Below are positions 4,751-26,368 of a stretch of 33,723 nucleotides of DNA, one piece after another; position 1 is the stretch's first letter, and every line of letters begins with the position of its first letter. Origin of the DNA: Halobacteriales archaeon QS_4_66_20 (GTDB taxonomy: Archaea > Halobacteriota > Halobacteria > Halobacteriales > Haloarculaceae). Made by a program: the position numbers and the translations under genes. The notes beneath the pieces are model-generated. The model saw only the letters and a program-made list of their open reading frames with translations. It was not told the DNA's origin and ran no database searches. The DNA lies in NCBI GenBank assembly GCA_003021015.1, contig PXRK01000068.1, positions 1 to 33,723 of the forward strand, read 5' to 3'.

Positions 4751-4858
4751 TACTGTCGAACGTGAGTACGTGGAGAGTTCTACCCCGGAATCGTGCTGAA
4801 ACGCGTGAATACACCAGTTTGCGTGTCTTGCCATTCCACAGAGTCACGTCCGACAGTA
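4751..4858. mobile_element. MITE copy 1 (108 bp), upstream of the photolyase gene
   Basis: Non-coding miniature element. The left end tactgtcgaacgtga (4751-4765) and right end tcacgtccgacagta (4844-4858) are inverted repeats matching at 14 of 15 bases, and weaker similarity extends about 10 bases further inward on each side. A 3-base duplication TAA flanks it (4748-4750 and 4859-4861). The end sequence belongs to the same family as the four other complete elements in the window. It lies directly upstream of the photolyase gene and its right edge overlaps that gene's predicted TATA box. Confidence 0.82.
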
Positions 4859-4864
4859 TAAGTA
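4857..4864 (+). promoter_or_regulatory. TATA box of the photolyase gene, formed at a MITE edge
   Basis: The octamer tataagta lies 23-30 bases before the GTG start at 4887, the spacing expected for a leaderless haloarchaeal transcript. Its first two bases are the last two bases of MITE copy 1, and the next three are the TAA target duplication. The promoter placement is an inference from position and sequence. Confidence 0.55.
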
Positions 4865-4886
4865 GCCCCAGTCCTATCCATATCGC

Positions 4887-6512
4887 GTGACAGGTCCAGT
4901 CGTCGGGACCGTGGATAGCTACGACATCGACGGCGACGACCGCGTTCCGTGGGTGCTCGGGACGCAGTTACACCCCGAGGCTGGCCCGTTGGGTCGTGCG
5001 CCGGTGGGGAGCCGCGTGCTGATGATCGAGGCCCGCGAGTTCGCGGGACGGAAACCGTACCACCACCAGAAGCTCACGCTGCTGTTCAGCAGCATGCGCC
5101 ACTTCCGGGACGAACTCCGGGAGCGCGGCTACGAGGTCGAGTACGTCCAGGCGCCGACGTTCGGTGACGGGCTCGCCGCCTACTTCGAGCAGTATCCCAA
5201 CTCCACGCTCGTCGCGATGCGCTCGCCGAGCCAGGGGAGTGCCGAACGGCTCCAGGAACTATCCGAAGCAGCCGGCGGCTCGCTCGATGTCGTGGAGAAC
5301 GAGCTGTTCGTCAGCACGCGGCGGGCGTTCGACGAGTGGGCAAACGACGCGGACGTGGACCCGTTCACCCACGAGAACGTCTACCGGTGGCTGCGCCGGG
5401 AGACAGGGGTGCTGCTGGCCGACGGCGACCCGATCGGCGGGCAGTGGAACTTCGACGAGGACAACCGGGAGTTCCCGCCGGAGTGCTGGGAGCCGCCGGC
5501 GACGTACGACCCCGGTGTCGACGACCTGACGAGGTCCGTCAGCGAATGGGTCAGCGAGACGTTCGACCCGTGGGGAGAGCCCGGGATTGGAGAGGGATCC
5601 GACCCTGCAGACGGAGGGGACTCCGCCGACGACTTCGTCTGGCCGGTCACCCGCGAGAGTGCGCTCGCCCGCCTGGACCACTTCGTCGACGAGCGCCTGC
5701 CGGCGTTCGGCCCGTACCAGGACGCCATGCGGCGCGGCGACTGGGCGATGGCCCACTCGCTGCTCAGCCCGAGCGTAAATCTGGGGCACCTCCACCCGTG
5801 GGAGGTGGTCACCGCCATCGAGAGCGCCGCCGCGGAGGATCCGGGCCTACCCCTGAACTCCGTCGAAGGAATTATCAGACAGGTGCTCGGATGGCGTGAG
5901 TTCATGCGCCACGTCTACCGCCACGCGATGCCCGACCTGGCGGGCGCAAGCCAGCTCGACGCTACCCGCGCGTTGCCCGACTTCTACTGGACCGGCGACA
6001 CGGGGATGGAGTGTCTCTCGGCGTCGGTCGACGACGTCCGGGAACGGGGGTATTCCCACCACATCCAGCGGCTGATGGTGCTGGCGAACTTTGCGACGCT
6101 GTGGGGCGTCGAGCCCGCCGAACTCAACGAGTGGTTCCACGCCACGTACGTCGACGCCTACCACTGGGTGACGACGCCGAACGTGATCGAGATGGGGCAG
6201 TACGCCCACGGCATCTTCGCCACCAAGCCCTACGTCTCCTCGGCGAACTACATCGACCGCATGAGCGACTACTGCGACACCTGCGAGTACGATCCGGACC
6301 GCGATACCGGCAAAGGAGCCTGCCCGTTCAACGCGCTGTACTGGGACTTCCTCGCCAGGAACGAGGACGAGCTGCGGAGCAACCACCGGATGGGGCTGAT
6401 GTACGGCCACGTCGACGACAAGCGCGACAGCGGCACGGTATCGGAGATCCGGGATCGCGTCGCAACGCTCCGCGACCGGGCCAGCGACGGCGAGCTATAC
6501 AGCCAGACGTGA
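4887..6512 (+). CDS. Iron-sulfur cryptochrome/photolyase-related protein (FeS-BCP type)
   Basis: Flavoprotein of the deoxyribodipyrimidine-photolyase-related family (DPRP), expected to repair UV lesions, probably (6-4) photoproducts as shown for Agrobacterium PhrB, or to act as a light sensor. The 541 residues begin with the Rossmann-like antenna domain (WVLGTQLHP, LMIEAREFAGRKPYHHQKL), followed by an acidic linker at about 220-250 and the helical FAD domain (GWREFMRHVYRHAMPDL, WVTTPNVIEMGQYAHGIFATKPYVSSANYI). Cys376, Cys463, Cys466 and Cys479 match the spacing of the [4Fe-4S] ligands of PhrB. The GTG start at 4887 keeps the first strand and fits the TATA box. The stop codon TGA and the last five residues lie within a MITE-type end (6498-6512). 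Confidence 0.9.
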   Translation: MTGPVVGTVDSYDIDGDDRVPWVLGTQLHPEAGPLGRAPVGSRVLMIEAREFAGRKPYHHQKLTLLFSSMRHFRDELRERGYEVEYVQAPTFGDGLAAYFEQYPNSTLVAMRSPSQGSAERLQELSEAAGGSLDVVENELFVSTRRAFDEWANDADVDPFTHENVYRWLRRETGVLLADGDPIGGQWNFDEDNREFPPECWEPPATYDPGVDDLTRSVSEWVSETFDPWGEPGIGEGSDPADGGDSADDFVWPVTRESALARLDHFVDERLPAFGPYQDAMRRGDWAMAHSLLSPSVNLGHLHPWEVVTAIESAAAEDPGLPLNSVEGIIRQVLGWREFMRHVYRHAMPDLAGASQLDATRALPDFYWTGDTGMECLSASVDDVRERGYSHHIQRLMVLANFATLWGVEPAELNEWFHATYVDAYHWVTTPNVIEMGQYAHGIFATKPYVSSANYIDRMSDYCDTCEYDPDRDTGKGACPFNALYWDFLARNEDELRSNHRMGLMYGHVDDKRDSGTVSEIRDRVATLRDRASDGELYSQT

Positions 6513-6552
6513 CTCCGGACAGTGCCAGGACAGTTCATCGGCCGTGTCATGC
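6498..6552. mobile_element. Truncated MITE, left half, overlapping the photolyase stop codon
   Basis: The 15-base end tacagccagacgtga (6498-6512) and about 40 following bases are nearly identical to the left half of the complete element at 24656-24764. For example, actccggacagtgccaggac is shared exactly, followed by catcgg and gtgtcatgcc with single differences. Similarity stops near 6552 and no matching right end is found before lysS. The last three bases of the end (TGA) are the stop codon of the photolyase gene. Confidence 0.75.
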
Positions 6553-6622
6553 CCCGAAGAGTCCACTGAACTCCGAAAGCCGCGACACCTGCTCGCACTG
6601 CGGCGAGGACCGCTGGGGATAG

Positions 6623-8278
6623 CTACCCCTTGCGCCGGAGACGCTCGACGACGAACTGCTGGTCGAGTTTCCCGAGAAACGGGCCGAGCTTCGGCCCCTC
6701 GTCGTCGTCGAAAAACAGCTGGTAGCCGGCCGCGAAGAAGTCGGCGACCTCGATGTCGTGGCGCTTGGCAGTCTCGTAGATTTCGCCCTGGATCGCCTCG
6801 CCGTCGTGGCCCTCCGCGACGAACTCGGCGAGTTCGTCCAGCGCCTGCTCGGTTGCCTCGTCGAAGGAGACGTCAGGCATCGCCGACCGCTTGAGTTCGT
6901 AGTCGAACTCGTTGCCTGTGCGGCGCGCCCAGTTGCGCGCCCGCTCGACGCGGGCGAGCGCCTCCTCAACGGCCCACTCGGGGGCGTCGTCGGGAACGTG
7001 TCCCTCGCGGCGGGCGATCTCCTCGCGCAGGTCGGGGTCGTCGGTCATTCCGAGGACGGCGGCGAAGGTGTAGGGAATCCGCACCCGCTTCTCGCGGACC
7101 GCCTCGACCACCTTCGGGTAGGCGCGCTCGGCGCGTACACGTTCGCGCTCGGGGGCGTCGGTCTCACCGAAGTAGACCCGTTCGAACTCGTCGAACTCGT
7201 CGACGAGCTGGTCGATCCGCTCGATGCTGAAATCGCGCTGTTTCAGTGGCGCCTTGCTGAAGAAGTACCGCAGGACGGCGGGTTCGAGGATGTCGAGCAC
7301 CTCGTCGACCGTGACGACGTGGCCGCCCGACGAGGAGAGTGCCTCGCCCTCCAGGGTGAACCACTCGTACACCATCGGCACCGGCGGCACCACGTCCAGC
7401 ACGTTGCGGGCGATGTCGACGCCGCTGGGCCAGGAGCCCTCGGCGTGGTCCTTGCCGAACGGCTCGTGGTCCACGTCGAGGATCCCCCACTGGGCGGGCC
7501 ACTCGAACCGCCAGGGGAGCTTGCCGTTCCGGAGTGCGGTCGTCCCCTCGTGCCCGCAGCCCTCGATGGTGTCGCCGCCCGTCTCGACGTCCGTACACCG
7601 ATAGGAGACGGTGTCCGCCTCCAGGTCGACGGCGGTGATCGTCTCCGTCAGTTGCCCGCAGTCCTCGCAGATCGCAAAGAATGGGACGTACTCCTCGTCG
7701 ATCTGGTCCTGGTAGCGCGCGAGCACCTCGCGGGCCCGGTCCTGATTGGCGAGGACGTGGCGGATGACGTCGTCGAACGCGCCCACCTCGTACAGCGCGG
7801 TGTTCGAGCGAAAGTCGACCTCGACGCCGAGCCGTTCCATGTCCCGCCGGAGCAGTTCGGTGAAGTGGTCGCCGTAGGAGTCACAGCAGCCGAACGGGTC
7901 GGGGATGTCGGTGTACGGCCGGCCGAGGTTCCGCCCGAGTGCGCCGGCGTCGATCTCGCCCAGCCCCACGATCTCGCCGTCGAGGTTCGCGAGACGCCGC
8001 GGGAGCTTCCGCAGACGGTCCCGGTCGTCGGAGGTGAACACCTGCCGGACCTCGCGGCCGCGGTCCCGGAGCGCTTCGGCGACGAAGTAGCCCCGCAGAA
8101 TCTCGTTCGGGTGGCCGATGTGCGGGATCCCGGACGGCGAGACACCCCCCTTAATCACCATCGGCTCCTCCGGGTTCCGCGCCTCGACGGCGTCGGCGAC
8201 GGCGTCAGCCCAGAACGCGCTGTCGTTGTTTTTCAGGACAGCATAGGGGTCCGCTTCCGAAGGGTGCTCCTGGCTCAT
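6623..8278 (-). CDS. lysS: Lysyl-tRNA synthetase, class I
   Basis: Charges tRNA-Lys. This is the archaeal class I enzyme, unrelated to the bacterial class II LysRS. The 551-residue protein has the HIGH signature at about 53-56 (PHIGHPNE). Zinc-type cysteines occur in the insertion (CEDCGQ, then Cys in YRCTD and EGCGHEG). The KMSKS-equivalent loop is LSSSGGH, as usual for class I LysRS. The C-terminal helical anticodon-binding cage follows from about residue 380. Length is normal for the family. The ATG overlaps the pyrH stop by four bases (8275-8278), so the two form a pyrH-lysS operon, an arrangement common in haloarchaea. Confidence 0.97.
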   Translation of the reverse strand: MSQEHPSEADPYAVLKNNDSAFWADAVADAVEARNPEEPMVIKGGVSPSGIPHIGHPNEILRGYFVAEALRDRGREVRQVFTSDDRDRLRKLPRRLANLDGEIVGLGEIDAGALGRNLGRPYTDIPDPFGCCDSYGDHFTELLRRDMERLGVEVDFRSNTALYEVGAFDDVIRHVLANQDRAREVLARYQDQIDEEYVPFFAICEDCGQLTETITAVDLEADTVSYRCTDVETGGDTIEGCGHEGTTALRNGKLPWRFEWPAQWGILDVDHEPFGKDHAEGSWPSGVDIARNVLDVVPPVPMVYEWFTLEGEALSSSGGHVVTVDEVLDILEPAVLRYFFSKAPLKQRDFSIERIDQLVDEFDEFERVYFGETDAPERERVRAERAYPKVVEAVREKRVRIPYTFAAVLGMTDDPDLREEIARREGHVPDDAPEWAVEEALARVERARNWARRTGNEFDYELKRSAMPDVSFDEATEQALDELAEFVAEGHDGEAIQGEIYETAKRHDIEVADFFAAGYQLFFDDDEGPKLGPFLGKLDQQFVVERLRRKG

Positions 8279-8961
8279 GACTGCTCGGAGACAATGTCGG
8301 TCCCATCGTGCGTGCCGTCGACGGCGTCGACCAGCGCCGCCGGGTCAGTTCCGTCGAGGACCACCGCACGCAGGCCCGACCGCTGGAGCAGTTTCGTCGC
8401 CAGCAGATCCACCGGGGCGTTGCTGCCCGCCGCGAGTTCGATCGAGGAGACGACGTCGACCAGTTCGCCGGCCGTCATCGACTCGAACTTGCTGGCGTCG
8501 TCGTCCTGGCCTGGATCGGCGTCGAACACGCCGTTGACGCTCGTCGCGTAGATCAGCAGGTCCGCGTCGACGTGCTCTGCCAGGGTGGTCGCAACGGCGT
8601 CGGTCGTGTGGCCGGCGACAGTGCCGCCCATCACTGGAATGTTGCCGTGAGTGAACACTTCCTTCGCGCGGTTGTGGGTTTGCAGCGGCTCCGGTGCCGC
8701 CCGATCGCCGAGCGCGGCGACCAGCAGCCGGGCGTTGAGCCGCGTCGCCGCGACTCCGATCTGATCCAGTTCCACCTCGTTGCCGCCGAGTTCGCGTGCA
8801 GCGCCGATGTACTCGCGGGCTGTCGGCCCGCCACCGACGACGATCCCCAGGTCGTGCCCGGCATCGTCTAGCTGTTCGACGACGGACGCGTACACCTCGA
8901 CCCGTGCCGCGTCGACGGTCGGCACCAGTACACTCCCGCCGATAGAAACGATCACGTTCAT
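8275..8961 (-). CDS. pyrH: UMP kinase (archaeal type)
   Basis: Phosphorylates UMP to UDP in pyrimidine nucleotide synthesis; cytosolic, amino-acid-kinase fold. The 228 residues match archaeal PyrH. Motifs are the N-terminal phosphate loop VSIGGSVL, GIVVGGGPTAREYI, then VMGGTVAGHTTDAVATTLAEHVDADLLIYATSVNGVFDADP, which carries the UMP- and ATP-site residues, and the C-terminal SNAPVDLLATKLLQRSGL. A cttaag TATA-like box is centred 27-28 bases upstream of the ATG, which suggests a leaderless transcript covering pyrH and lysS. Confidence 0.96.
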   Translation of the reverse strand: MNVIVSIGGSVLVPTVDAARVEVYASVVEQLDDAGHDLGIVVGGGPTAREYIGAARELGGNEVELDQIGVAATRLNARLLVAALGDRAAPEPLQTHNRAKEVFTHGNIPVMGGTVAGHTTDAVATTLAEHVDADLLIYATSVNGVFDADPGQDDDASKFESMTAGELVDVVSSIELAAGSNAPVDLLATKLLQRSGLRAVVLDGTDPAALVDAVDGTHDGTDIVSEQS

Positions 8962-8986
8962 ATCCTCGGCGTAGCCGTGAGCCGGT

Positions 8987-8992
8987 CTTAAG
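8987..8992 (-). promoter_or_regulatory. TATA-like box of pyrH-lysS
   Basis: The palindromic hexamer cttaag lies 26-31 bases upstream of the pyrH ATG (first base 8961), the position of a haloarchaeal TATA element for a leaderless mRNA. It is the only A/T-rich hexamer near that distance. The assignment rests on position alone. Confidence 0.45.
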
Positions 8993-9300
8993 CGTTGTCA
9001 AGCCCACTGCACACCCGGCTTCCCCATGCAGCGGCAGTCTACGGGCGCGTCCGGACGACACTCGCGTGGCGCCACTACCTGCATGTCAACGTCCCTCAAT
9101 CGGCAACATGATCCTCGTTTTGGCAGTTGCGCCTGAAATTATTCGGTATCCCCCACGTCGAATCAATTGGGCGACCCTAACCACCTCTCGCTAGATTTGA
9201 GAGTGTTATAAAACTTCTAAGATTCAGTTAAACGATTATAAAACGTCGTTTCACGTGCATTCACACTGAAACTGAACAAAGCAGCGCAAAGGTTCCTTTC

Positions 9301-9308
9301 TTTATATA
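9301..9308 (+). promoter_or_regulatory. TATA box of the small winged-helix gene
   Basis: The string tttatata lies 35-42 bases before the ATG at 9343 and predicts a transcript with a leader of roughly 10-15 bases. It is the best TATA match in the intergenic region. Confidence 0.5.
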
Positions 9309-9342
9309 CCCTTACAGGGGATACGAGTGAGTGAGGCAAGAC

Positions 9343-9585
9343 ATGAGCGCGACACAGTCCTCCCAGGACAGCAGTTCGAAGGAAGAACGGCTTCGATCGT
9401 TCCTGAAGCAGAAGGCCCAGGACGGCGAGGTCTACTTCAAGAGCAAGTTCATCGCGGACGAGGTCGACCTCACCCCGAAAGAGATCGGCGCACTCATGGT
9501 GAAGCTCCGGGACTCCACGCCGGACCTCGAGATCGAGAAGTGGTCGTACACGAGCGCGACCACCTGGCGTGTCGAGCCCTCGTGA
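9343..9585 (+). CDS. Small conserved haloarchaeal protein, winged-helix-like (DUF7123-type)
   Basis: An 80-residue acidic protein. After a Ser-rich start, residues 15-80 read as one compact domain: a helix EERLRSFLKQKA, then YFKSKFIADEVDLTPKEIGALMVKLRD (a helix-turn-helix-like pair), and a strand pair EKWSYTSATTWRVEP at the end, which fits a winged helix. I recall this pattern from an uncharacterised protein family widespread in haloarchaea (DUF7123). A role in DNA or RNA binding is plausible but not shown. The ATG at 9343 was preferred to the GTG at 9331 because family members start just before the Ser/Thr run. Confidence 0.75.
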   Translation: MSATQSSQDSSSKEERLRSFLKQKAQDGEVYFKSKFIADEVDLTPKEIGALMVKLRDSTPDLEIEKWSYTSATTWRVEPS

Positions 9586-9830
9586 CCGCAGGCGGTGTCG
9601 CGCTGCGGATCCGCCCGGCTCCCCGCTACTGAACACAGAACCGCTTTCCCCTGTGGTTCTCCCTCCCCTTCTGACGACCAGTGATCGGATAGTCTCTTGT
9701 CCGAACGAGGAGTACGCGGTGTCCCGCCGTTCGTCGGAGGCTCCCGCCGGCTGAACAGTCATCACGTATCGTGGTTTTCGTCGGCCGTCGCTCCGGGGAT
9801 TTATGGAGACACAAGTCATAGCACGCGCCG

Positions 9831-10979: not shown

Positions 10980-11001
10980 CTCCCGCGACCGACACCTCTC
11001 A

Positions 11002-11110
11002 TACGGTCGTTCGTGAGTATTTTCGGGACTGTCCCGTCATATCGGGCGTTTGACGGCCTCTGGCGCACGAGCTGTGACACCGTAGCGGTAACGAATCACG
11101 GACGACCGTA
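11002..11110. mobile_element. MITE copy 2 (109 bp), in the thiL 3' end
   Basis: Ends are tacggtcgttcgtga (11002-11016) and tcacggacgaccgta (11096-11110), inverted with 14 of 15 matches. A TCA duplication flanks it (10999-11001 and 11111-11113). Inside the left end the sequence gtgagtattttcgg, and near the right end cggtaacga-tcac, are shared with copy 5 at 26260, so these two belong to one subfamily. No protein of its own is encoded. Confidence 0.85.
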
Positions 11111-11113
11111 TCA

Positions 11114-11128
11114 TAGTGATTATTGCGA
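11114..11128. mobile_element. Isolated MITE-type end next to copy 2
   Basis: tagtgattattgcga follows directly after the TCA duplication of copy 2 and differs by one base from the left end of copy 3 (tagtgattattgtga at 14746). No matching right end is seen before thiL coding sequence resumes near 11211. It is probably the remnant of an older element into whose flank copy 2 inserted, and is a candidate for the event that removed the thiL C-terminus. Confidence 0.55.
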
Positions 11129-12047
11129 TTGTTTTCTGAGTCACATCGTCGTCCCGGGAATGTCACGGGCTGAAACCGGTGGCTGACGAATCGACGGCGG
11201 TAAAGAATCGTACAGACGAGTTCGAAGTCCTCGCCGAAAAAGCGGCTCAGCTCCCGCCGTTCGTCGTCGTCGACGACGGCTTCGAGTTCGGGGGCGACCG
11301 GCAGCGGGGACTCGACGGCGAACCCGCAGTCGCTGGCCTCCGCCAGCTGGTGGAGCGAGCGGGCCAGCCCGTCGCTGCTGTCCATCATTGCCGTCGCGTG
11401 GGTGGCCAACTGCTGGCCCGCCGCGACGCGAGGTTCGAACCGGAACAGCTCGTTCGCGCGTTCGTGCTCGCCGGCCTCGAACAGGCGCAGCGCCGCCGCG
11501 CTCCGGCCCAGTGTGCCAGTGACGCAGACGGCGTCGCCGGGCGTCGCGCCGGACCGCTGGACGGGCGACTCGGCCCGGCCGAGCGCCGTCGACGCGACCG
11601 TGAACTCCTCGTGACCGTCCAGGTCGCCGCCGACGTACTCGGCGCCGACGTTCGCAGAGACGTCGGTTGCACCCGCGACGAACGCCGCGAGTTCGTCCCA
11701 GTCGAAGGCGGGGGCGCCGTAGACGGCGACCGTCGCAACCGCCTCCCCGCCCATCCCGGCGACGTCCGACAGCGAGGCGGCGACGGCCCGCCAGCCCGCG
11801 GTGTACCTGGTCGTCCCGGCCGGGAAGTCGGTCGACTCGTGGAGCATGTCGGTCGTCAGCACCAGGCCGTCGACGACGGCCGCGTCGTCGCCAGCTTCCG
11901 GTACCTCCTCTGTGATCCGCGTCAGTGCCGACCGCTCGTCCATGGCTGCATTACTGCGCCTCGACGGAAATACCCTCCCGTCGAGTAATCGACCGCGTTC
12001 GTGCGTGCGATGCGTTCACAGGCAGCCTGCAGGCGCGGGGGCGGTGA

Positions 12048-12055: not shown

Positions 12056-12085
12056 ACTGGAGGAAGTACGGTCCGTCAGTCAATC

Positions 12086-14694: not shown

Positions 14695-14724
14695 TAGTGA
14701 TTGTTGTGATACTGTCGGACGTGA
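14695..14724. mobile_element. Two abutting MITE-type ends
   Basis: tagtgattgttgtga (14695-14709) is followed without a gap by tactgtcggacgtga (14710-14724). The second continues as gtacgtgg, as in the left end of MITE copy 1 (4751). The last three bases of the first end (TGA) fit a TNA target, so the second element probably inserted into the first. The right ends are lost; only a caatcact remnant just before copy 3 may remain. Confidence 0.6.
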
Positions 14725-14745
14725 GTACGTGGCCAATCACTCTCA

Positions 14746-14825
14746 TAGTGATTATTGTGACTGTTTACCGGGTCGACCGCACGCAGTCTCGCGGTCGATC
14801 CCGGAACGACTCACAAGAATCACTA
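14746..14825. mobile_element. MITE copy 3 (80 bp)
   Basis: Ends tagtgattattgtga (14746-14760) and tcacaagaatcacta (14811-14825) are inverted with 14 of 15 matches. The flanking triplet TCA is duplicated (14743-14745 and 14826-14828). The interior holds a further short palindrome around gaccgc/gcggtc. It is shorter than the other copies, so it may be an internal deletion form. Confidence 0.85.
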
Positions 14826-18428: not shown

Positions 18429-19180
18429 CGCTGCTCGCCGTCGAGGGCGTCCGGCGCTCGTTCGGCAGCCTCGTCGCGGTCGAGGGCGTCAGCTTCGGGA
18501 TCGAGGCCGGCGAGATCGTCGGCATGATCGGGCCGAACGGCGCCGGCAAGACGACGACGTTCAACTGCATCTCGAGCGTCATCGACAGCGACGCCGGCAC
18601 CGTCCGGTTCGACGGCGCGGACGTCACCGGGGTCCCGCCGTACGCGCTCGCCCGCCGCGGCATGGTGCGGACCTTCCAGCAGACGCGGGAGCTGGAGACG
18701 GTGACCGTCGCGGACAACATGCTGCTTGCGGCGCCAGAGCACCCGGGCGAGCGCGCCTGGCACGCCATCGGCCGCACGTCAGCAAGCGCCCAGCGCGAGG
18801 CCGCGGCGCGCGAACGCGCGATGGAACTCCTGGAGGTGTTCGACATCGCGGGAATGGTCGAGGAGTACGCCGGCAACCTCTCGGGCGGCCAGCGAAAGCT
18901 GCTTGAGCTGGCGCGCTCGCTGATGCTGGACCCGAAGCTGCTGATGCTCGACGAGCCGTTCGCCGGCGTCAACCCGTCGCTGACAGACGAGATCGTCGGC
19001 CACATCGAGGCGCTCAACGACGAGGGGATGACGCTGCTGATCATCGAACACGAACTGGAGACGCTGACTGACCTGGTCGACCGGCTGATCGTCCTCGCCG
19101 ACGGCGAGGTACTCGCGACCGGTCCGCCGGCCGAAATCATGGACAACGAGGAGGTAATCGATGCGTATCTCGGCGGGTGA
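18425..19180 (+). CDS. livG: Branched-chain amino-acid-type ABC ATPase, LivG family
   Basis: ATPase of the Liv/Urt-type importer. The 251 residues show Walker A GPNGAGKTT (about 36-44), TGVPPYALARRGMVRTFQQTRELETVTVADNM with the LivG-type Q-loop, the signature LSGGQRKLLELARSL, Walker B LLMLDEPFAGVNP and the switch histidine IIEHELETL. LivG rather than LivF is favoured by RTFQQ and the FAGVNP segment. The GTG start overlaps livM. LivF, the usual second ATPase, is absent: the next gene is an MFS transporter 70 bases on. LivG might act as a homodimer or pair with a distant LivF. Confidence 0.92.
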   Translation: MTLLAVEGVRRSFGSLVAVEGVSFGIEAGEIVGMIGPNGAGKTTTFNCISSVIDSDAGTVRFDGADVTGVPPYALARRGMVRTFQQTRELETVTVADNMLLAAPEHPGERAWHAIGRTSASAQREAAARERAMELLEVFDIAGMVEEYAGNLSGGQRKLLELARSLMLDPKLLMLDEPFAGVNPSLTDEIVGHIEALNDEGMTLLIIEHELETLTDLVDRLIVLADGEVLATGPPAEIMDNEEVIDAYLGG

Positions 19181-19249
19181 CCGGCTCCCGAACGTGGCCC
19201 GTGTTCCGTGCGGCTAAGTACATCCACGAGTAATGGACGAGCACATCTG

Positions 19250-20518
19250 ATGGCCTGGGAATCGAACGACCGGAAGATCGCGGCGTTCACGATGCTCGGA
19301 CACGGACTGGTCCACTGGTTCGAGATGTCGATCCCGATCTTCCTGGTGGTCTGGCTGGACGCGTTCCCCCAGTCGGTCGCGCTGGTGGGCCTGATCGTCG
19401 CGCTCGGGTACGCCCCCTTCGGCATCGGCGCGCTGCCGGCGGGCGTGCTGGCGGACAGGTACGGGGCCAAGCGGCTCGTGCTGCTGTGTTTCGCCGGGAT
19501 GACGCTCTCCTTTCTGCTCCTCCCGTTTGCCCCCTCGATTTACGCCGTGGGCGCGGCGCTGGTCGTCTGGGGTGTCGCCGCGAGCATCTACCACCCGGCG
19601 GGGATGTCGCTGATCAGCACCGGCGCGCACGAACGCGGGACAGTGTTCGCCTGGCACGGCATCGCGGGCAACCTCGGCATCGCGTTGGGGCCGTTCACGA
19701 CCGCCACCCTGCTGATCTTCTTCGATTGGCAGGTCGTCGCTGCGCTGGTGGCGATTCCCGGCGTGATCGCCATCCTCTACGGGCTGCGCGCGGAGTTCGA
19801 TCCGACCGCTGCGGTCGAGGAGGACGTCGACGCCGGCGCGGGGACGGCGCTGACCCCCGCAACCGTCCTCTCGAACAGCAAGCACCTCTTTGCGAGTGCG
19901 TTCCTCGTCGTGTTCGTGCTCGTCATCTTCGAGGGGCTGTTCTACAGGGGCGTGCTCACCTACCTGCCGGAGATCCTGCAGGATCTGGACGCGATGGCCA
20001 CGATCACCCTGGATGTGGGACTCGCCGGGATCGAACCCTCGGACTACGTGTTCGTCGGCCTGCTCGTGGTCGGTATGGCCGGCCAGTACGCCGGCGGGAA
20101 GCTCAGCGACCGCGTGGCCGTCGAGCGTGGCCTGCTGGTCGCGTTCGGCATCCTGGCGCTGCTGGCGCTGCTGTTCGTCCCGGCGACGGAACTCGGGCTG
20201 GTGGGTATCCTCGCGGTCTGTGCGCTGCTCGGGTTTTTCCTGTTCGCGATCCAGCCGTTCTACCAGGTGGCGGTGGCGCTGTACACGCCGGCGGACACCC
20301 GCGGGCTCTCCTACGGGTTCACCTACCTCGGGGAGTTCGGGTTCGGCGCCGCGAGCATCGCCATCGGCGGGTTCGTGCTCGACGAGGCCACGCTGGCGGC
20401 GTTTTTCGCGACGCTAGCGGCGTTCGCGCTCGTCGGCGGGGCGCTTTCGCTTTTGTTGCTGGTCGGCCACGACCGGTTCGCGCTGCTCGAACGCGGCGAT
20501 CCGGAGGCCGCTGACTGA
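19250..20518 (+). CDS. Major facilitator superfamily transporter
   Basis: Secondary transporter of 422 residues with about twelve membrane helices in two halves joined by an acidic cytoplasmic loop (about 185-205, AAVEEDVDAGAGT). The loop between helices 2 and 3 has GVLADRYGAKR, the MFS signature form G-x-L-a-D-r-x-G-x-(k/r); helix 5 has GIAGNLGIALGP. The second-half repeat of the signature is GGKLSDRVAVERG. The substrate is not known. Its position after livG, on the same strand with a 70-base gap and no clear TATA box, allows cotranscription with the uptake operon. The ATG at 19250 precedes the first helix; the upstream in-frame extension is discarded. Confidence 0.9.
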   Translation: MAWESNDRKIAAFTMLGHGLVHWFEMSIPIFLVVWLDAFPQSVALVGLIVALGYAPFGIGALPAGVLADRYGAKRLVLLCFAGMTLSFLLLPFAPSIYAVGAALVVWGVAASIYHPAGMSLISTGAHERGTVFAWHGIAGNLGIALGPFTTATLLIFFDWQVVAALVAIPGVIAILYGLRAEFDPTAAVEEDVDAGAGTALTPATVLSNSKHLFASAFLVVFVLVIFEGLFYRGVLTYLPEILQDLDAMATITLDVGLAGIEPSDYVFVGLLVVGMAGQYAGGKLSDRVAVERGLLVAFGILALLALLFVPATELGLVGILAVCALLGFFLFAIQPFYQVAVALYTPADTRGLSYGFTYLGEFGFGAASIAIGGFVLDEATLAAFFATLAAFALVGGALSLLLLVGHDRFALLERGDPEAAD

Positions 20519-20548
20519 TACTGGTAAAAGAATTACAGCCACCAGTAT
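20519..20548. repeat. Short inverted repeat flanked by TGA triplets
   Basis: tactggt (20519-20525) and accagta (20542-20548) form seven-base arms around 16 bases. The triplet TGA lies on both sides; the left TGA is the stop codon of the MFS gene. It could be a stem-loop at the end of that transcript, or a much reduced relative of the window's MITEs, which also start with tact and sit in TNA duplications. The evidence does not separate the two. Confidence 0.4.
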
Positions 20549-20611
20549 GAGCCGTGTGGAGGATGCAATTTGGGCGATAGAATCAAATCACCGTCGCCAG
20601 TAGGAAGGCAC

Positions 20612-21820
20612 ATGGACTCGTTCGACGCCGACCCGAGCACGCAGACGGTCGAGTACAAGCCCGTCGGCGTCAAGGACCTCCTGATCGCGATGAAGGACAC
20701 CTCGGAGCTGATCGTGGACCTCTCGTACTCCGCGCTGCTGAACAACAGCGACGACCTGGCCGAGGAGGTGCTCCAGCTCGAATCCCGCATGGACGTCCTG
20801 CAGATGCAGGCGCGGATGAACATGCTGATGGCCGCCCGCAAGCCCGAGGAGGCGCGGCTGCTGGCGCCCGTGCTCGGTATCATCGGCGCCGCGGAGAAGA
20901 TCAGCGAGGCCGCCGGCGACGTCGCCAACGTCGTTCTGGAGGAGGAGGACCTCCCCGGCGCGATCAGGGCGGCACTCCCCGAGGCGATGGAGGTGCTCGC
21001 CCGCGCGCCGGTCGCCGCCGACTCCCGGTACGCCGGCCGGACGCTGGGGGGGATCGACCTCGAAACCGAGACCGGCGTCCGGGTGATCGCGCTGCGCCGC
21101 GACGACGACTGGGTGCTCACCCCCGACAACGAGACGACAGTCGAAGCGGGCGACGTGCTGCTGCTCCGGGGCGCCGAACCGAACGTCTCGGGCGTTTACG
21201 AGACCGTCACAGGCGACCCCTACCAGAGCCCCGACGAGGTCGACCACGAGATGTCGGATCTCACGCGGGCGGTCGATACGATCGTGCTGATGAAAAACGT
21301 CAGCGAACTCTCGGTGGATCTCGCGTACGCGAGCGTCCTCTTCGACGACGAGGCGCTCGCCGAGGAGGTCCACGCCCTGGAGATCGAGGTCGACGCCCTC
21401 CAGTCGCGCCTCGAAGCGTGGACGCTCCGGGCTGCGAGCGAGGTGAACGAGCCCGTCTCGCTGCGCGGCTTGTTGCACCTGGCAAACAGCACCGAACTGA
21501 TCAGCGACGCCGCCCTGGAGATCACCGAGGGGATCCTCCGGGACATCGACACCCACCCCGTCATCGCCGAGTCCGTCCGGGAGAGCGACGTCGCCGTCCG
21601 CCGGGTTCGGGTCGACCCCGAGAGCGGGTTCGACGACGAGCCGCTTTCGACGCTTCTGGACGCCCACCCCGGGATCGCCGTCATCGCGATCCATCGCCCC
21701 GACGACGAGTGGGTGTTCTACCCCGACGAGGAGACGACGCTCAGCCCCGCCGACGGCCTCATCGTCCGGGGCACCTGGGAAGCGACGGAGAAACTGCTCG
21801 CGGACTCGGCGATCAGCTGA
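20612..21820 (+). CDS. Tandem PhoU-like/TrkA-C domain protein
   Basis: Cytosolic, probably ligand-sensing regulator of an ion transporter. The 402-residue protein consists of two similar halves. Half one (about 15-195) has a PhoU-like helical bundle starting GVKDLLIAMKDTSELIVDLSYSALL and a TrkA-C (RCK_C) domain ending VRVIALRRDDDWVLTPDNETTVEAGDVLLLRG. Half two (about 215-395) repeats this as RAVDTIVLMKNVSELSVDLAYASVL and IAVIAIHRPDDEWVFYPDEETTLSPADGLIVRG. RCK_C domains bind small ligands such as cyclic dinucleotides or cations. The gene is convergent with two MgtE half-transporters, so it may control magnesium or other cation transport (inference). The ATG at 20612 was chosen over the TTG at 20570. 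Confidence 0.85.
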   Translation: MDSFDADPSTQTVEYKPVGVKDLLIAMKDTSELIVDLSYSALLNNSDDLAEEVLQLESRMDVLQMQARMNMLMAARKPEEARLLAPVLGIIGAAEKISEAAGDVANVVLEEEDLPGAIRAALPEAMEVLARAPVAADSRYAGRTLGGIDLETETGVRVIALRRDDDWVLTPDNETTVEAGDVLLLRGAEPNVSGVYETVTGDPYQSPDEVDHEMSDLTRAVDTIVLMKNVSELSVDLAYASVLFDDEALAEEVHALEIEVDALQSRLEAWTLRAASEVNEPVSLRGLLHLANSTELISDAALEITEGILRDIDTHPVIAESVRESDVAVRRVRVDPESGFDDEPLSTLLDAHPGIAVIAIHRPDDEWVFYPDEETTLSPADGLIVRGTWEATEKLLADSAIS

Positions 21821-21840
21821 GCGGCTGGCTGCCACACCGC

Positions 21841-22413
21841 TCACAGCAGCCACGTCGAGACGCCGACGAAGATGACCATCCCGAACACGTCGACGACGTT
21901 CGTGACGATGGGGATGGTGGTGTCGTCGGGGTCGATTCCCAGCTGGTAGGAGACGTACGTGGCGCCGAAGCTGAACACGACGGCGACCACGGCGAGCGAG
22001 AGCCCGCTGAGCAGCGAGATTGCGAGCAGCGTCGTAAGCGAGAGCGTCGATCCGGTCAGCGACCCCAGGAGGTACGCGCCGACGGCCAGCGCCGTGAAGA
22101 TCGTCGCCGCGAGCGCGATGATCGCGAGGATGTTCGCCCACAGCTCCGGCTCCCGGGGGTCCAGCTCCGTCCTCCCGAGGTGGAACCGCGTCGACAGCCG
22201 CGCGCTCAAGATTGCGCCGAGGTTGCCGCCCATGTCGACCATCGTCGGTACCATCACCGCGAGCACGCCGTACTCTTCGAGGAACGCGCGGGCGCCCTCC
22301 AGCCTGATGCCGGCGACGAGGACGACGATCGAGAGCCCGATCAGCAGCGGAAACATGTTCCCGACAATCGTCCGCCAGTTCCAACTTCCGAGGGAGCCGC
22401 CAGCCGTTACCAC
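21841..22413 (-). CDS. MgtE-type divalent cation transporter, membrane half 2
   Basis: A 190-residue membrane protein with five predicted helices. It matches the transmembrane domain of the MgtE magnesium channel and lacks the cytosolic N and CBS domains. Motifs are MVPTMVDMGGNLGAILSARLSTRFHLG, corresponding to the MgtE pore helix region, and DPDDTTIPIVTNVVDVFGM, with the conserved acidic residue of the ion path (DVFG). Its ATG overlaps the stop of the preceding half-gene by seven bases, so the two are co-translated and may form a heterodimer, as MgtE works as a dimer of such five-helix units. Confidence 0.88.
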   Translation of the reverse strand: MVTAGGSLGSWNWRTIVGNMFPLLIGLSIVVLVAGIRLEGARAFLEEYGVLAVMVPTMVDMGGNLGAILSARLSTRFHLGRTELDPREPELWANILAIIALAATIFTALAVGAYLLGSLTGSTLSLTTLLAISLLSGLSLAVVAVVFSFGATYVSYQLGIDPDDTTIPIVTNVVDVFGMVIFVGVSTWLL

Positions 22414-22982
22414 GTCGCGAGCACCTCCACGAGGCCGACAGAGAGCAGCAGAAAGAGCATGCCGAAGATGTCACCCAGCGTCGTGACGATCGGCCCCACG
22501 AGGTTGTCCGGGTCGAGCCCGTAGGTGAACCCCAGAAACAGCAGCCCAAGGAGGCCGATGATCATCACGACCGACGTCAGCACGCCCGCGATCAGCATGA
22601 TCGCGACGAACTCGACGAGTGCAGCGGACTCCCAACCCAGGATCAGCAGCGCGAGCCACGTGATGACGCCGATGACCGCGGAGATGCCGACGCCGTTGAC
22701 GAAGGAGGCGATCACGGCGTTGGCGAGGCGGTCGTCCCACTCGAAGCGTGGTTCGATCAGTCCCTGGTGGAGGCCACTGGCGATCCGACCACCCAGCGCG
22801 CCGTACACGTTCCCGCGCGTGGCGAGAAACACGGGAACCATAACGAGCAGGCCCGGAAACCGCGCGACCCGCTCCAGGACCCCTTCGAGAACGAGGCCGG
22901 CGAACAGGCCGCCACAGAGCGCGACGAGCAGCACGGGGAGCGCTTCCCTGTAGATTCCCCAGAACTCCTTCCGGACGCCCAT
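22407..22982 (-). CDS. MgtE-type divalent cation transporter, membrane half 1
   Basis: A 191-residue membrane protein of the same MgtE transmembrane family as its downstream neighbour. Five helices are predicted. Motifs are LVMVPVFLATRGNVYGALGGRIASGLHQG and DPDNLVGPIVTTLGDIFGM, the latter with the acidic ion-path residue. There is no CBS or MgtE-N domain, so magnesium sensing must come from another protein; the convergent PhoU/TrkA-C gene is a candidate. Both halves are the usual size for the haloarchaeal split MgtE pair. Confidence 0.88.
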   Translation of the reverse strand: MGVRKEFWGIYREALPVLLVALCGGLFAGLVLEGVLERVARFPGLLVMVPVFLATRGNVYGALGGRIASGLHQGLIEPRFEWDDRLANAVIASFVNGVGISAVIGVITWLALLILGWESAALVEFVAIMLIAGVLTSVVMIIGLLGLLFLGFTYGLDPDNLVGPIVTTLGDIFGMLFLLLSVGLVEVLATW

Positions 22983-23079
22983 GTCGGTGACTCGCCCACG
23001 GCGCTGTTAAACCTGACGAGAGATAGCCCGGTCGCTGTTTTCGTCTGTGCTGCCGGCACCAGTACAGGTCGCCGGCGTC

Positions 23080-23451
23080 TCAGATCCAGTTCTGGCGGTC
23101 GAACACGATGCTGGAGAGTCGCGAGGCCAGTTGCCGGGCGTCGTCCTCGGTGTCGGCGTGGAGGTCCCCCGACACCGGGCCGGCTTCGCCGCCGACCCCC
23201 TCGGTCTCGGAGACGGGGTCGGTCTTGGGCGGGTAGGCGCGCCACTCTCTGGTCCGGTCCCGGAGGTCCTGGACCGACTCCTGGCGGAGTTCCACGTCGA
23301 GGTGCTGGAGGTCGTAGCGGACGATGAACCCCCGGCGGGCGTCGCGGATGGCGACGACGGGCTGGCCGCGGTCCTCACACCGGTCCCAGAGGTCGTGGCG
23401 CTGGTCGCTGGTCTCGTAGACGGGGACGTGATGCGGCGCGAGCTGGTCCAT
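23080..23451 (-). CDS. Hypothetical protein
   Basis: A 123-residue acidic, soluble protein with no motif I recognise. The N-terminal half (MDQLAPHHVPVYETSDQRHDLW, AVVAIRDARRGFIVRYDLQHLDVEL-like strands) could be a small alpha/beta domain. Residues 68-100 are a low-complexity Asp/Glu/Gly stretch, and the C-terminus ends DARQLASRLSSIVFDRQNWI, probably a helix. I prefer this strand over the competing frame on the plus strand because its composition is typically haloarchaeal (acidic, few Cys) and it is colinear with its minus-strand neighbours. It lies 98 bases from the mgtE-type pair and 41 bases from the aminotransferase. Confidence 0.6.
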   Translation of the reverse strand: MDQLAPHHVPVYETSDQRHDLWDRCEDRGQPVVAIRDARRGFIVRYDLQHLDVELRQESVQDLRDRTREWRAYPPKTDPVSETEGVGGEAGPVSGDLHADTEDDARQLASRLSSIVFDRQNWI

Positions 23452-23492
23452 ACGCCGCCTTCGGCTGGAGGAATATGCGTCTGACGACTGCG

Positions 23493-24617
23493 CTACGACC
23501 GGACGGCCTCGGTCGCGGCTTCCATCACGTCCAGCGCCTCCTCGATCGTTTCGAGGCCGGCGGCGTAGGAGATGCGGGCGTAGCCCTCGCCGTGCTCGCC
23601 GAACGCCCCCCCGGGTACGACGACGACACCGCGGTCCAGCACCTCATCGACCCAGCCCTCGGGGACCTTCGGCATCGCGTAGAAGGCGCCCTCGGGGCGC
23701 GGGCAGTCAATTCCCATCTCGGCGAACCGTTCGACGAGGACGTCCCGGCGCTGTTCGAAGGCTCCGACCATCTCGTCGACGGGATCCTGCGGGCCCGTCA
23801 GGGCGGCCTCGGCGGCGTACTGGGCGGGCGCGCTGGCGCAGGCCTGGACGTACTGGTGGACGCGCAGCATGCGCTCGACGCGCTCGTGGGAGCCGGTCAC
23901 CCAGCCCAGCCGCCAGCCGGTCATCGAGTACGTCTTCGAGCAGGCGTTGACGACGACGACGTTGTCGCTGTCGGCGAACTCCATCGGGGATCGGTGCTCG
24001 CCCTCGAAGACGATGTGCTCGTACACCTCATCGGAGATGCACAGCACGTCGTGCTCGTCGGCGATTCGGGCGAACTCCCGCATGTCCGCTGCCGACTGCA
24101 CCGCGCCCGTCGGGTTGGCGGGGCTGTTGACCACGAACGCCGCGGTGTCGTCGGTGATGGCGTCCTCGATGGTGGCCGGATCCAGCGTGAGGTCGTCGCG
24201 GAGCGGGACCGGGTTCGGGTCGCCGCCCGCGAGATGCGTCAGCGCGTCGTAGGAGACGAAGCCGGGGTCGGGGAAAATCACCTCCTCGCCCTGGTCGACG
24301 TGTGCCTCCATCGCGATGTGCAGCGCCTCGCTGCCGCCCGCCGTGGCGATCACGTTCGCCGGGTCGACCTCGAGGTCGTTGTCGCGGGCGTGTTTCCCGG
24401 CGATGGCCTCCCGGAGGGACCCGGTACCTTTGTTGGAGGTGTAGGCGTCAGTCTTGTCGCCCTCGATGGCGTCGATGGCGCCCTGCCGGGCGTGGTCCGG
24501 CGTCGGGAAGTCCGGCTGACCGAGGCCGAGGTTGATCGCGTCCTCGCCCGCCGCCTCGAACACATCCCTGATGCCGCTGATCGACACCTGCTCGACGCGC
24601 CGTGAGAACTCCGTCAT
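23493..24617 (-). CDS. Aminotransferase, class I/II (PLP-dependent)
   Basis: Transfers amino groups between amino and keto acids, using pyridoxal phosphate. The 374-residue protein carries family hallmarks: INLGLGQPDFPTP near 28-40, YTSNKGTGSLREAI, NSPANPTG (about 164-171, with the conserved Asn), SDEVYEHIVFEG (Asp196) and the PLP lysine in SKTYSMTGWRLGW (Lys228). The C-terminal ARISYA has the substrate carboxylate-binding arginine. It resembles the aspartate/aromatic aminotransferase group of archaea; the exact substrate is not determined. A TATA-like gcataac (24641-24647) lies about 27 bases upstream, and MITE copy 4 begins nine bases further out. Confidence 0.93.
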   Translation of the reverse strand: MTEFSRRVEQVSISGIRDVFEAAGEDAINLGLGQPDFPTPDHARQGAIDAIEGDKTDAYTSNKGTGSLREAIAGKHARDNDLEVDPANVIATAGGSEALHIAMEAHVDQGEEVIFPDPGFVSYDALTHLAGGDPNPVPLRDDLTLDPATIEDAITDDTAAFVVNSPANPTGAVQSAADMREFARIADEHDVLCISDEVYEHIVFEGEHRSPMEFADSDNVVVVNACSKTYSMTGWRLGWVTGSHERVERMLRVHQYVQACASAPAQYAAEAALTGPQDPVDEMVGAFEQRRDVLVERFAEMGIDCPRPEGAFYAMPKVPEGWVDEVLDRGVVVVPGGAFGEHGEGYARISYAAGLETIEEALDVMEAATEAVRS

Positions 24618-24655
24618 ACCTACTGGCTCTCACCGGGCGCGCATAACTCTTGATA

Positions 24656-24764
24656 TACAGTCAGACGTGACTCCGGACAGTGCCAGGACAGTCCATCGGC
24701 TGTGTCATGCCGAGAACAACGGAAGTTGGGACGGCATGGCTTGAATAAATCACGTCTGGCTGTA
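24656..24764. mobile_element. MITE copy 4 (109 bp)
   Basis: Ends tacagtcagacgtga (24656-24670) and tcacgtctggctgta (24750-24764) are inverted with 14 of 15 matches; the outward tat/ata continues the repeat by two more bases on each side. The length equals that of copies 2 and 5. The flanking triplets ata and tag do not match, so no target duplication is visible. The left half is closely related to the truncated copy at 6498. It separates the aminotransferase promoter from the lipoprotein gene end. Confidence 0.82.
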
Positions 24765-24814
24765 TAGTTCGTCGCGGGGCACCGATCCGTTGCAGCCGTC
24801 ACGACCAGCTGCTC

Positions 24815-26134
24815 TCACCTCGTAGCTCCGGGATCTTCTTCCAGAGCTTCGGCGCGTTCGACCAGCGTATTGATCCGCTCGGCGTCCATCTCGAACTCAA
24901 CTCGCACACGGTCGTCCGTCGTGTCGATCGTGGTCGCCTTGAAAATCTCCTCGGCGATCGCTGCTTTCTCCGGGTCGTCGATCCACTGCGAGCCGGCCAG
25001 CGCGATCGACAGTATCGAGCCCATCTGGCGAGCTTCTTCCGTTCCGACGGCGACGAAGGTGGCGTTGAGACGGACCGTCTCGCCCTCGGGGGCGTACTCG
25101 ACGACGGTCGTCTCGACATCGGCCCCCAGCTTCGTGGCTGTGCTGCCGTCAGTGGTCCCGCTCCGGTCAGTGGACGTATTGACTACCGCGGTCACGAGAC
25201 CCTCGGCGGCCGCTGCTTCCTCGCGCAGGGCCCCACTCACTGCTGCTGACTCGCCCTGGCGCGTGTCGATAACTGTCTCGACCTGCTCCTGTGGTCCGAC
25301 GGCGAACACGCCGTTTCCGAAGTCAGCCACCCAGATTTCCTGCGTGTGGGTCCCGTTGTAGGCACTCCCGTTTTTCGGGACCTGATACAGCTGGACACCG
25401 CCGTGGGAACCCTCGGTGAACTCCCCTTCGATCCGGTCGCTCTGGGCGAGCGCGTCCCGGACCGTCGCCCACGTCAGATCAGTGTCGACTATCGCGACGC
25501 CGTCGTGGTGTTTGGATTCGCGGCTCCCGTCGCGCTGCTCCGTGAAGTACGTTACCGAGTGGACCTCGGAGACGTTGATCCCGAGCTGTGCCTCGTACAG
25601 GTCGATCACCTCCAGATAGGACGACACGCCGGCGGTCTCCGCCGTCGAATCGAACAGGCTGTGGTTCTCGGCGTCGAGATCCGAGTAGTTCCACTCGTCG
25701 GTCGATTCGGAGCCGTTCGCGAGTGTGATCGTACTCTCCTGGGTCAGGATGCTGGGATCGACCGTCACGATCAACTCTGCCGATGCGGGGACGTAGCTGA
25801 GCAGTGGCTCGGCGTCGGACCCCGAGTCGGTAGCGGCGCCGTTGCCTGCACTGTTCTCCGACCCATCGCTGGTGTCTGTCCCGTCGTCACCGCTGTCACT
25901 CGGTGTCTCCTCGTCCGCTGCCTGTGTCTCGACATTCGCCCCGTCGTCAGTGTCGCTCTGTTCTGGGGTTTCAGTTGCGGATTGGTCTGGCTGGGGGGTC
26001 TCGGGCGTTTCTGCTGGTGACTCGTCGGGATCGTTGAGCAGGCCCACACAACCGCTCGTGACGACGAGCGCCGTCACGAGGAGCAGCAGGGCTGCCTGTA
26101 CCCGATTGCGACCTGTCAGTGGAGGACTGTCCAT
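24815..26134 (-). CDS. Haloarchaeal lipoprotein of unknown function
   Basis: A 439-residue secreted protein. Residues 1-28 form a signal (RNRV, then a hydrophobic ALLLLVTALVV) with a lipobox VTSGC; the twin-arginine pair is absent, so Sec export is likely. Residues 30-105 are a Pro/Glu/Thr/Asp-rich spacer. The rest (about 110-439) is a beta-rich acidic domain: SYVPASAELIVTVDPSIL, YLEVIDLYEAQLGINVSEVHSVTYF, LYQVPKNGSAYN, WVADFGNGVFAVGPQEQVETVIDTRQGESAAVSGAL. I do not know the family's function. The ATG at 26134 was chosen over 26161 because it begins just before the signal and because cttaaaag lies 27-34 bases upstream. Confidence 0.75.
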   Translation of the reverse strand: MDSPPLTGRNRVQAALLLLVTALVVTSGCVGLLNDPDESPAETPETPQPDQSATETPEQSDTDDGANVETQAADEETPSDSGDDGTDTSDGSENSAGNGAATDSGSDAEPLLSYVPASAELIVTVDPSILTQESTITLANGSESTDEWNYSDLDAENHSLFDSTAETAGVSSYLEVIDLYEAQLGINVSEVHSVTYFTEQRDGSRESKHHDGVAIVDTDLTWATVRDALAQSDRIEGEFTEGSHGGVQLYQVPKNGSAYNGTHTQEIWVADFGNGVFAVGPQEQVETVIDTRQGESAAVSGALREEAAAAEGLVTAVVNTSTDRSGTTDGSTATKLGADVETTVVEYAPEGETVRLNATFVAVGTEEARQMGSILSIALAGSQWIDDPEKAAIAEEIFKATTIDTTDDRVRVEFEMDAERINTLVERAEALEEDPGATR

Positions 26135-26160
26135 CGTACCGTAGTACCGGCTTACAAACA

Positions 26161-26168
26161 CTTAAAAG
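26161..26168 (-). promoter_or_regulatory. TATA-like box of the lipoprotein gene
   Basis: cttaaaag on the plus strand (ctttt-aag read toward the gene) lies 27-34 bases upstream of the ATG at 26134, fitting a leaderless transcript. Confidence 0.45.
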
Positions 26169-26259
26169 TGAACTTGTCCACGTACTCGGATCCCCGTCCA
26201 CTTCCCCCGACTTCTCTTGATGGGATCCCCTCCACTCGGTCAAGAGCGGTTCTGTTTGA

Positions 26260-26368
26260 TACTGATTGTTGTGAGTATTTTCGGCACCACATCGCAGTAG
26301 CGGCGGTTTCATGGCCCGAGACTGGCGTCTGGCGAATACCCGGCGGTAACGAGTCACAACACTCAGTA
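26260..26368. mobile_element. MITE copy 5 (109 bp)
   Basis: Ends tactgattgttgtga (26260-26274) and tcacaacactcagta (26354-26368) are inverted with 14 of 15 matches, and TGA is duplicated at the flanks (26257-26259 and 26369-26371). The left end differs by two bases in the last eight from the end of the insertion sequence at 33614 (tactgattattgtgc). It shares inner blocks with copy 2. It sits between the lipoprotein and dioxygenase genes. Confidence 0.85.

Follow-up and report, generated by a model that had tools for sequence, protein, structure and literature searches.

Short inverted-ended insertions of two main lengths, with TNA or TA target duplications, in Halobacteriales archaeon QS_4_66_20 and other haloarchaea

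How do pieces of DNA of about 110 or 80 bp, bounded by inverted ends and without a transposase of their own, come to be inserted in a haloarchaeal chromosome? The question is raised by contig PXRK01000068.1 of Halobacteriales archaeon QS_4_66_20 (assembly GCA_003021015.1), a stretch of 33,723 nucleotides referred to here as the window, which is contig 68 of a 2.89-Mb assembly in 86 contigs. An original prediction, made from the letters of the window, had described five such pieces as one family of miniature inverted-repeat transposable elements (MITEs). We find that these elements are real, mobile insertions, widespread in haloarchaea and recently active in Halovenus salina. A 15-base inverted end lies within a motif of about 25 bases, the target is palindromic and most often GWC-TSA-GWC, two main lengths are kept despite turnover of the middle, and both ends of a copy are usually the same variant. 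The elements are likely MITEs whose movement depends on a DDE transposase acting in trans, one that was lost or is not itself carried between such ends.

Insertions in the window and their targets

All five predicted elements are present, on the plus strand, and the two 15-base ends of each agree at 14 of 15 positions. The first (4751..4858, 108 bp) has the ends TACTGTCG(A/G)ACGTGA and a TAA duplication, and is 96% identical to the consensus of cluster 7, one of the interior clusters described below. The second (11002..11110, 109 bp; ends TACGGTCGT(T/C)CGTGA) and the third (14746..14825, 80 bp; ends TAGTGATT(A/C)TTGTGA) both duplicate TCA, and the third forms a hairpin nearly throughout, while the fourth (24656..24764, 109 bp; ends TACAG(T/C)CAGACGTGA) and the fifth (26260..26368, 109 bp; ends TACTGA(T/G)TGTTGTGA) are flanked by duplications of TA and TGA, respectively. 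The predicted three-base flank duplication in four of the five (TAA, TCA, TCA, TGA) was thus confirmed; the fourth element, with GATA on its left and TAG on its right, lacks one because elements with TACAG or TACAC ends duplicate the two bases TA. A search for inverted TA-N9-GTGA pairs, with a span of 60-140 bases and up to three mismatches, returned the five elements and one overlapping alternative pair (14695-14825), against no such pair in 200 dinucleotide-preserving shuffles of the window, as would be expected if the elements did not arise by chance.

A search of parts of the genome and of its relatives, along the lines that the original prediction had proposed, recovered abundant pairs with flank duplications. 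From 1.60 Mb analysed, with viral loci left out and at most two end mismatches allowed, we obtained 273 pairs, flanked by TCA in 111 cases, TGA in 95, TA in 18, TAA in 7, TTA in 2, AGT in 1 and no duplication in 39. Among the 247 pairs of the two main sizes (78-80 or 106-111 bp), TA was duplicated by 15 of the 16 with TACAG or TACAC ends, and T-N-A by 147 of the 167 with GATT-type ends. There are therefore two duplication modes, TNA (almost always TGA or TCA) and TA, and they are tied to the type of end. Over 198 sites, the target consensus is the palindrome G-W-C-T-S-A-G-W-C.

Sites without the element were found as well. At the place orthologous to 24656..24764, genome SW_7_65_23 (G106:C63) has a clean empty site with a single TA. 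Elsewhere, joined flanks were compared between genomes in 26 listed cases, and 5 of these are gap-free empty sites. For the window itself, the predicted empty sites were borne out at this one element: three others had no orthologous flank pair in the sequence analysed, and at the 26260 locus the contig of SW_10_66_29 stops inside the element. In SW_10_66_29 (L343 1598-1753), the 24656 element occurs with its first 39 bases and GATA flank tandemly repeated. The elements are thus short, have inverted ends, carry no transposase, occur in many copies, and have target duplications and empty sites, as MITEs do. As to the proposal of one transposition mechanism with several end variants, the MITE character, the end variants, the common lengths, the duplications and the empty sites agree with it, and the two duplication modes and two lengths call for its revision.

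Ends, lengths and distribution

The prediction that the ends co-vary within an element was upheld on the larger set: the two ends were identical in 184 of the 273 pairs, and differed by one mismatch in 65 and by two, the limit of the search, in 24. Clustering of 152 elements (up to four end mismatches) by their interiors gave 13 clusters, of 81, 21, 15, 8, 6, 6, 5, 4, 2, 1, 1, 1 and 1 members. With cluster 9 excluded (a singleton with four end mismatches, probably due to chance), the 24 ends of the other 12 clusters follow a common motif to about base 25, with TA at positions 1-2, G at 5, GT at 12-13, A at 15, T at 17, K-T at 20-21 and G at 25, and variable bases between them. Judged from these sequences, an end motif extended across families would fit a single recombinase family.

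The common length of 108-109 bp that had been predicted from four window elements recurs in the larger set beside a second one: 247 of the 273 pairs measure 106-111 or 78-80 bp. A stricter scan of 433,675 bases of the genome, open to spans of 50-514 bp, gave simple duplicated copies of 50-57 bp (3), 80 bp (7) and 106-111 bp (41); one pair of 131 bp and one of 176 bp are among those that lack a duplication. Helical phasing alone was dropped as the cause of the fixed length, because lengths one turn away from 109 bp are absent among the simple duplicated copies. When members from across the order are set beside those of H. salina in an alignment, the 15-base end and roughly ten bases internal to it (TATTTTC; GCGGTAAAGA) prove to be conserved, as does the length, and the middle has diverged. 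The clusters of 78-80 bp fold over their entire length (z of -3.61, -2.80, -1.40 and -4.34 relative to shuffled interiors); for the longer clusters, z ranges from 0.31 to -2.24. Two mini-elements with TGA duplications, L498 152-208 (57 bp) and L499 89-141 (53 bp), are internal deletion products of the TACTGCC family.

Copies are numerous in the genome of the window. With 40 of 184 candidates scored, the 26260 element has at least 39 further long matches there that are 87% identical or better, and the exact ends TASTGATTRTTGTGA and TACWSYCRGACGTRA occur 232 and 321 times, against no occurrence of the reversed end patterns. The 433,675 bases scanned consist of the window and 20 stretches from four large contigs (67, 23, 38 and 40) in which copies had already been seen, and are therefore not a random sample. 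Within them, 57 of 67 pairs are duplicated, 51 simple and 6 enclosing another pair, and five shuffled sets gave 0-2 pairs, none of them duplicated. The 48 simple duplicated copies of the two main sizes amount to 0.11 per kb and 1.2% of bases, which by simple extrapolation gives about 320 copies in the genome, plus relics.

Within the family, the exact TASTGATTRTTGTGA end was found in 8 of 146 genomes, and in more than a handful of places only in the genome of the window (232), SW_7_65_23 (G106; 119) and SW_10_66_29 (G107; 186). A pattern scan of an 84,980-species collection gave at least 75 stretches, and among the matches listed all came from SW_7_65_23, SW_10_66_29, QS_1_68_17 and QS_9_68_17. 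With a consensus as query, a match at E 0.001 was obtained in at least 10 of 392 genomes of the order, a lower bound because two candidates were scored per genome. Of 13 loci examined from across the order, ten hold a complete same-family member of 108-109 bp with a TSA duplication, two of these in G097, which belongs to the genus of the window, and eight in six genomes of five other genera, which fall in the family of the window and in three other families. One further locus has a TACACCC element (109 bp, TA) together with a broken copy, and two are partial matches.

Halovenus salina JCM 30072 (G101), of the same genus as the window genome (Halovenus, or the group placed with it in the genome collection), carries elements that are all 108 or 109 bp long (21 of 21), with a perfect duplication at 20 of 21. 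Among sixteen copies the median difference is 6 of 109 bases and some copies are identical, a similarity that points to recent movement. Its 117,008-bp plasmid, which carries an element, was the one plasmid match among five queries; the other four had no plasmid match, and one query run against phages had none. The viral stretches returned by two end patterns (71 and 53) contain no end with a partner at up to two mismatches, and three longer end patterns returned no viral stretch; a viral or plasmid origin was dropped on these viral, plasmid and phage results. At L405 1501-2007 (507 bp) in H. salina, a 109-bp element is split by another insertion, about 0.4 kb long and itself bounded by inverted ends (TGTTCAGATAAG...).

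Relics, tandem copies and stop codons

The window also contains broken copies. A degenerate 109-type element of cluster 0 (11114..11209, plus strand; 73% over 96 bases) stands in tandem with 11002-11110, with one TCA common to both; complete tandem pairs with one common TSA number six among the 247 elements of the main sizes, and end-like neighbours, these six included, number 21. At 14695..14732 (plus strand), a 15-base end, TAGTGATTGTTGTGA, directly adjoins what is left of a TACTGTCGGACGTGA element, its first 23 bases. Including this case (window 14695-14724), two 15-base ends of different classes abut directly, with no duplication between them, in three places, the others being L489 2462-2491 and L492 1848-1877. 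The comparison with the clusters further identified the first 61 bases of a TACAGCCAGACGTGA element at 6498..6558 (plus strand). A 29-base deletion relic of a TACTGGTGGCTGTAA element lies at 20519..20547 (minus strand) with TGA on both flanks, and a possible TACAG-family fragment, a weak match of 28 bases at 86%, lies within a predicted gene at 25364..25391 (minus strand).

Several of these copies lie at gene ends. The left TGA of the 20519-20547 relic is the stop codon of an MFS transporter gene (19208-20518), and a photolyase-related gene (4887-6512) takes its last codons and its TGA stop from the end of the 6498 relic. At 11002-11110, the left TCA is the stop codon of a minus-strand, thiL-like (AIR synthase-related) frame (10999-11943), which now reads through the element. 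The match of this frame to the C-terminal domain is limited to positions 2-100 of 156, and its C terminus is probably altered by the element and the adjoining relic, because its 3′ end crosses both. Window 26486-27679 encodes a predicted indoleamine 2,3-dioxygenase family protein (Pfam IDO, E 6e-71), here in a haloarchaeon.

Across the pair set, 92 of 190 TGA insertion sites, read on the appropriate strand, end an open frame of at least 100 codons; for CTGAG control sites the count is 120 of 554. Among sites without a spanning frame of 200 codons, the proportion is 15/37 against 4/39 (p 0.003), or against 140/997 for any TGA (p 0.0001). These counts use open frames without gene prediction, so that the frames are not proven genes.

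The search for a transposase and the competing explanations

Three Pfam transposase families were searched: DDE_Tnp_1, DDE_3 and DDE_Tnp_4. The genome of the window has one DDE_Tnp_1 match, a short frame of 216 amino acids from its start codon, with no such end pair around it. Eight other carriers gave 116 matches in seven genomes; H. salina has 39 matches. We examined 50 DDE_Tnp_1 loci (30 of the 116 matches and 20 H. salina stretches, some of which cover the same place), and none of the best end pairs listed there starts with TA; the real-looking ends were GGCTCTGTTGAA, GAGGGTGTCATAG, CGGTACTTCACG and similar ones, and otherwise none was recognisable. Small elements lie near some transposase genes, with no such end pair enclosing the gene. 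On the H. salina plasmid, a 109-bp element (L464 1957-2065) lies between a DDE_Tnp_1 frame and a frame on the same strand that is possibly its other part. DDE_3 had no match in any of six carrier genomes searched, H. salina not being among them, and DDE_Tnp_4 had none over the cut-off in ten genomes, with two weak matches at E 0.05-0.06.

Transposon-sized partners were sought as well, as TA-type ends that pair and are flanked by a duplicated TNA or TA, lying 300-5000 and 200-6000 bp apart in stretches of the window genome and its sisters, and 55-3515 bp apart in 660,000 bases of H. salina (4-kb overlap; chromosome stretches partly chosen around known copies). The H. salina sequence gave 15 pairs, each 108-109 bp long and none of transposon size; a duplicated plasmid segment accounts for two of the 15. 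In other stretches, the 13 distinct pairs more than 700 bp apart that were checked all have both ends starting like known small elements, and in the five that were read the frames between the ends are host genes (ABC transporter, PCNA-like and PurD-like, named from sequence alone). These 13 were rejected as transposons. Among 577 distinct exact ends, 401 are partnered within the size limits, 22 lie near a locus edge and 154 are single; 104 of the single ends start like a known small element, and the other 50 have no common interior (three weak or same-place matches). The stretches around unpaired ends yielded no transposon, and unpaired ends were rejected as transposon ends. Elements ended by CAGTAGTTGC in SW_10_66_29, G184 and G337 were dropped, having other ends and no TNA duplication.

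No transposase was identified, and the DDE class is proposed from the duplication pattern only. IS5-family groups are marked by a TNA duplication (IS1031) or a TA duplication (IS427), and the elements may be MITEs of an ordinary IS5-family transposon of the IS1031/IS427 type, with an autonomous copy that simply falls outside what was assembled or sampled. We regard this as a serious possibility, if somewhat short of an even one: the two known duplications match both modes seen, multi-copy transposons tend to drop out of assemblies of metagenome-assembled genomes, and the 39 DDE_Tnp_1 matches of H. salina were examined in part. Against it stand the 50 DDE_Tnp_1 loci without a best end pair starting with TA, the lack of DDE_Tnp_4 matches over the cut-off in ten genomes, and the lack of a transposon-sized pair in 660 kb of H. 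salina; unlike IS5-family MITEs, the elements have no IS5-type transposon with their ends among the loci examined. The lead to IS5 and IS1031 given in the original prediction is thus neither shown nor excluded, the TNA and TA duplications favouring it and the ends at the DDE_Tnp_1 loci not.

The matched ends fit an enzyme that needs like ends, and they also fit a repair process in which one end is copied onto the other. Position 3 of the ends, in a family of 117 copies, is C/C in 32, G/G in 80 and mixed in 5, where independent pairing at those frequencies would give about 48 mixed copies by our own arithmetic, and a tree of the interiors requires at least 4 switches at position 3 (11 over four end classes). 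Both observations would be expected if one end were converted by the other through hairpin or cruciform repair, with no selection for a cognate enzyme. However, the tree is poorly resolved, conversion of interiors between copies would look alike, the left and right ends in H. salina differ regularly at position 15, and single-end variants in the 117-copy family are mostly singletons, as in decay. Conversion seems to us an unlikely source of the matching.

Movement by an IS630/Tc1-mariner enzyme, as for RUP or Correia elements, is less likely still. RUP (about 107 bp) and Correia elements (about 104-108 bp) have inverted ends, similar sizes and a TA duplication, as do the present TACAG/TACAC elements (15 of 16); most of the present elements, in contrast, duplicate the three bases TSA, and the six carriers searched for DDE_3 had no match. 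That the elements are conserved hairpins with a host function (terminator, RNA or binding site), spread by recombination like REP or BIME sequences, is highly improbable and as an origin largely refuted, since, despite the long hairpins of the 78-80 bp clusters and the enrichment of insertion sites at TGA stop codons, they have empty sites and target duplications, the latter not known to be made by REP-type elements, the order-wide alignment pairs only the ends and three further base pairs, and the window has no Rfam match at the curators' thresholds; a host role for single copies is possible. A regulatory RNA was dropped on the same few paired columns and lack of an Rfam match, and integron attC sites were dropped because of the target duplications.

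The elements share with prokaryotic MITEs in general a small size, inverted ends, direct repeats, many copies and elements inside elements; a 2024 review describes such MITEs as shorter than 500 bp, multicopy and sometimes nested, with direct repeats at the flanks and ends some 4-30 bp long (PMC10969869). Unlike the examples in that review, which vary widely (39-400 bp, 178-235 bp), they hold two main lengths across unrelated interiors. The closest known system, compared by description, is the small mobile repeats (SMR-A/SMR-B) of Haloquadratum walsbyi, and the coincidence in size is striking: PMC3119063 describes three families at about 110 bp, unrelated to one another, and a further family at 80 bp. 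Like the present elements, these are haloarchaeal, free of a transposase and prominent in their inverted ends. As described there, SMRs make no target duplication, have ends unrelated to known transposons, target in the case of SMR-A the near-terminal palindromes of IS605-type elements and PATEs, and are mobilised in a manner called enigmatic (PMC3119063); the present elements, in contrast, duplicate TSA or TA at a GWCTSAGWC-like target. A de novo scan of plasmid PL47 gave no inverted pair of 60-134 bp, and a literature search, with most subscription papers and all supplements outside it, found no description of the present elements.

For movement in trans by a DDE transposase, we propose the following course. 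The enzyme would bind both 25-base ends, cut the target with a stagger of three (or two) bases and paste the element in. The variable bases in the end would be read by different transposase variants, so that both ends must match, and the fixed length would reflect a geometric need of the end-pairing complex. The enzyme would be supplied in trans, its gene lying outside elements with these ends or having been lost. An insertion into a TGA stop still leaves a TGA, which may be why copies survive at gene ends.

Several points weigh against this account. No transposase of these elements was identified in the search of three Pfam families, with about one fifth of the window genome and 660 kb of H. 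salina scanned for transposon-sized pairs. A clean duplication is lacking at 39 of the 273 pairs, and 21 of the 26 flank comparisons are disturbed by further elements, gaps or divergence, some of them repeating one place. End identity is not absolute, because in H. salina the left and right ends of an element differ nearly always at position 15, and the interior tree, built on 79 columns, is weakly resolved, 66 of its 109 inner branches being open. Twenty-six of the 273 pairs are of other sizes, 8 of them of 50-59 bp and 18 of 95-198 bp, the latter group including nested and overlapping pairs, not all dissected; descent from one ancestor could also partly account for the length constraint. At a 150-codon cut, the excess at stop codons is not significant (5/21 against 1/20, p 0.18, or against 55/454, p 0.17).

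A further proposal, which we consider unlikely, is that this is a haloarchaea-wide class of small elements kept by a domesticated host transposase without such ends, which would read matched end codes and accept only two lengths about 30 bp apart. RAYT, which mobilises REP/REPIN elements, is a single-copy Y1 enzyme. To our knowledge, REP/REPIN elements make no target duplication, unlike the elements described here. If the proposal is true, the domesticated enzyme would be the DDE counterpart of RAYT/REPIN, and would answer how the Haloquadratum small mobile repeats move.

What is unusual about these elements is a near-fixed length over unrelated interiors, a duplication length that switches with the type of end, and a transposon with these ends not found so far. 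The printed puzzle of how haloarchaeal repeats of 110 and 80 bp move becomes testable now that target, stagger and end code are available, together with a closed genome that carries recent copies, that of H. salina JCM 30072. A strict length with unrelated middles would inform on how transposases pair very short DNA ends. The density in the stretches sampled, some one element every 8-9 kb and often at stop codons, shows to what extent such insertions can load an archaeal chromosome.

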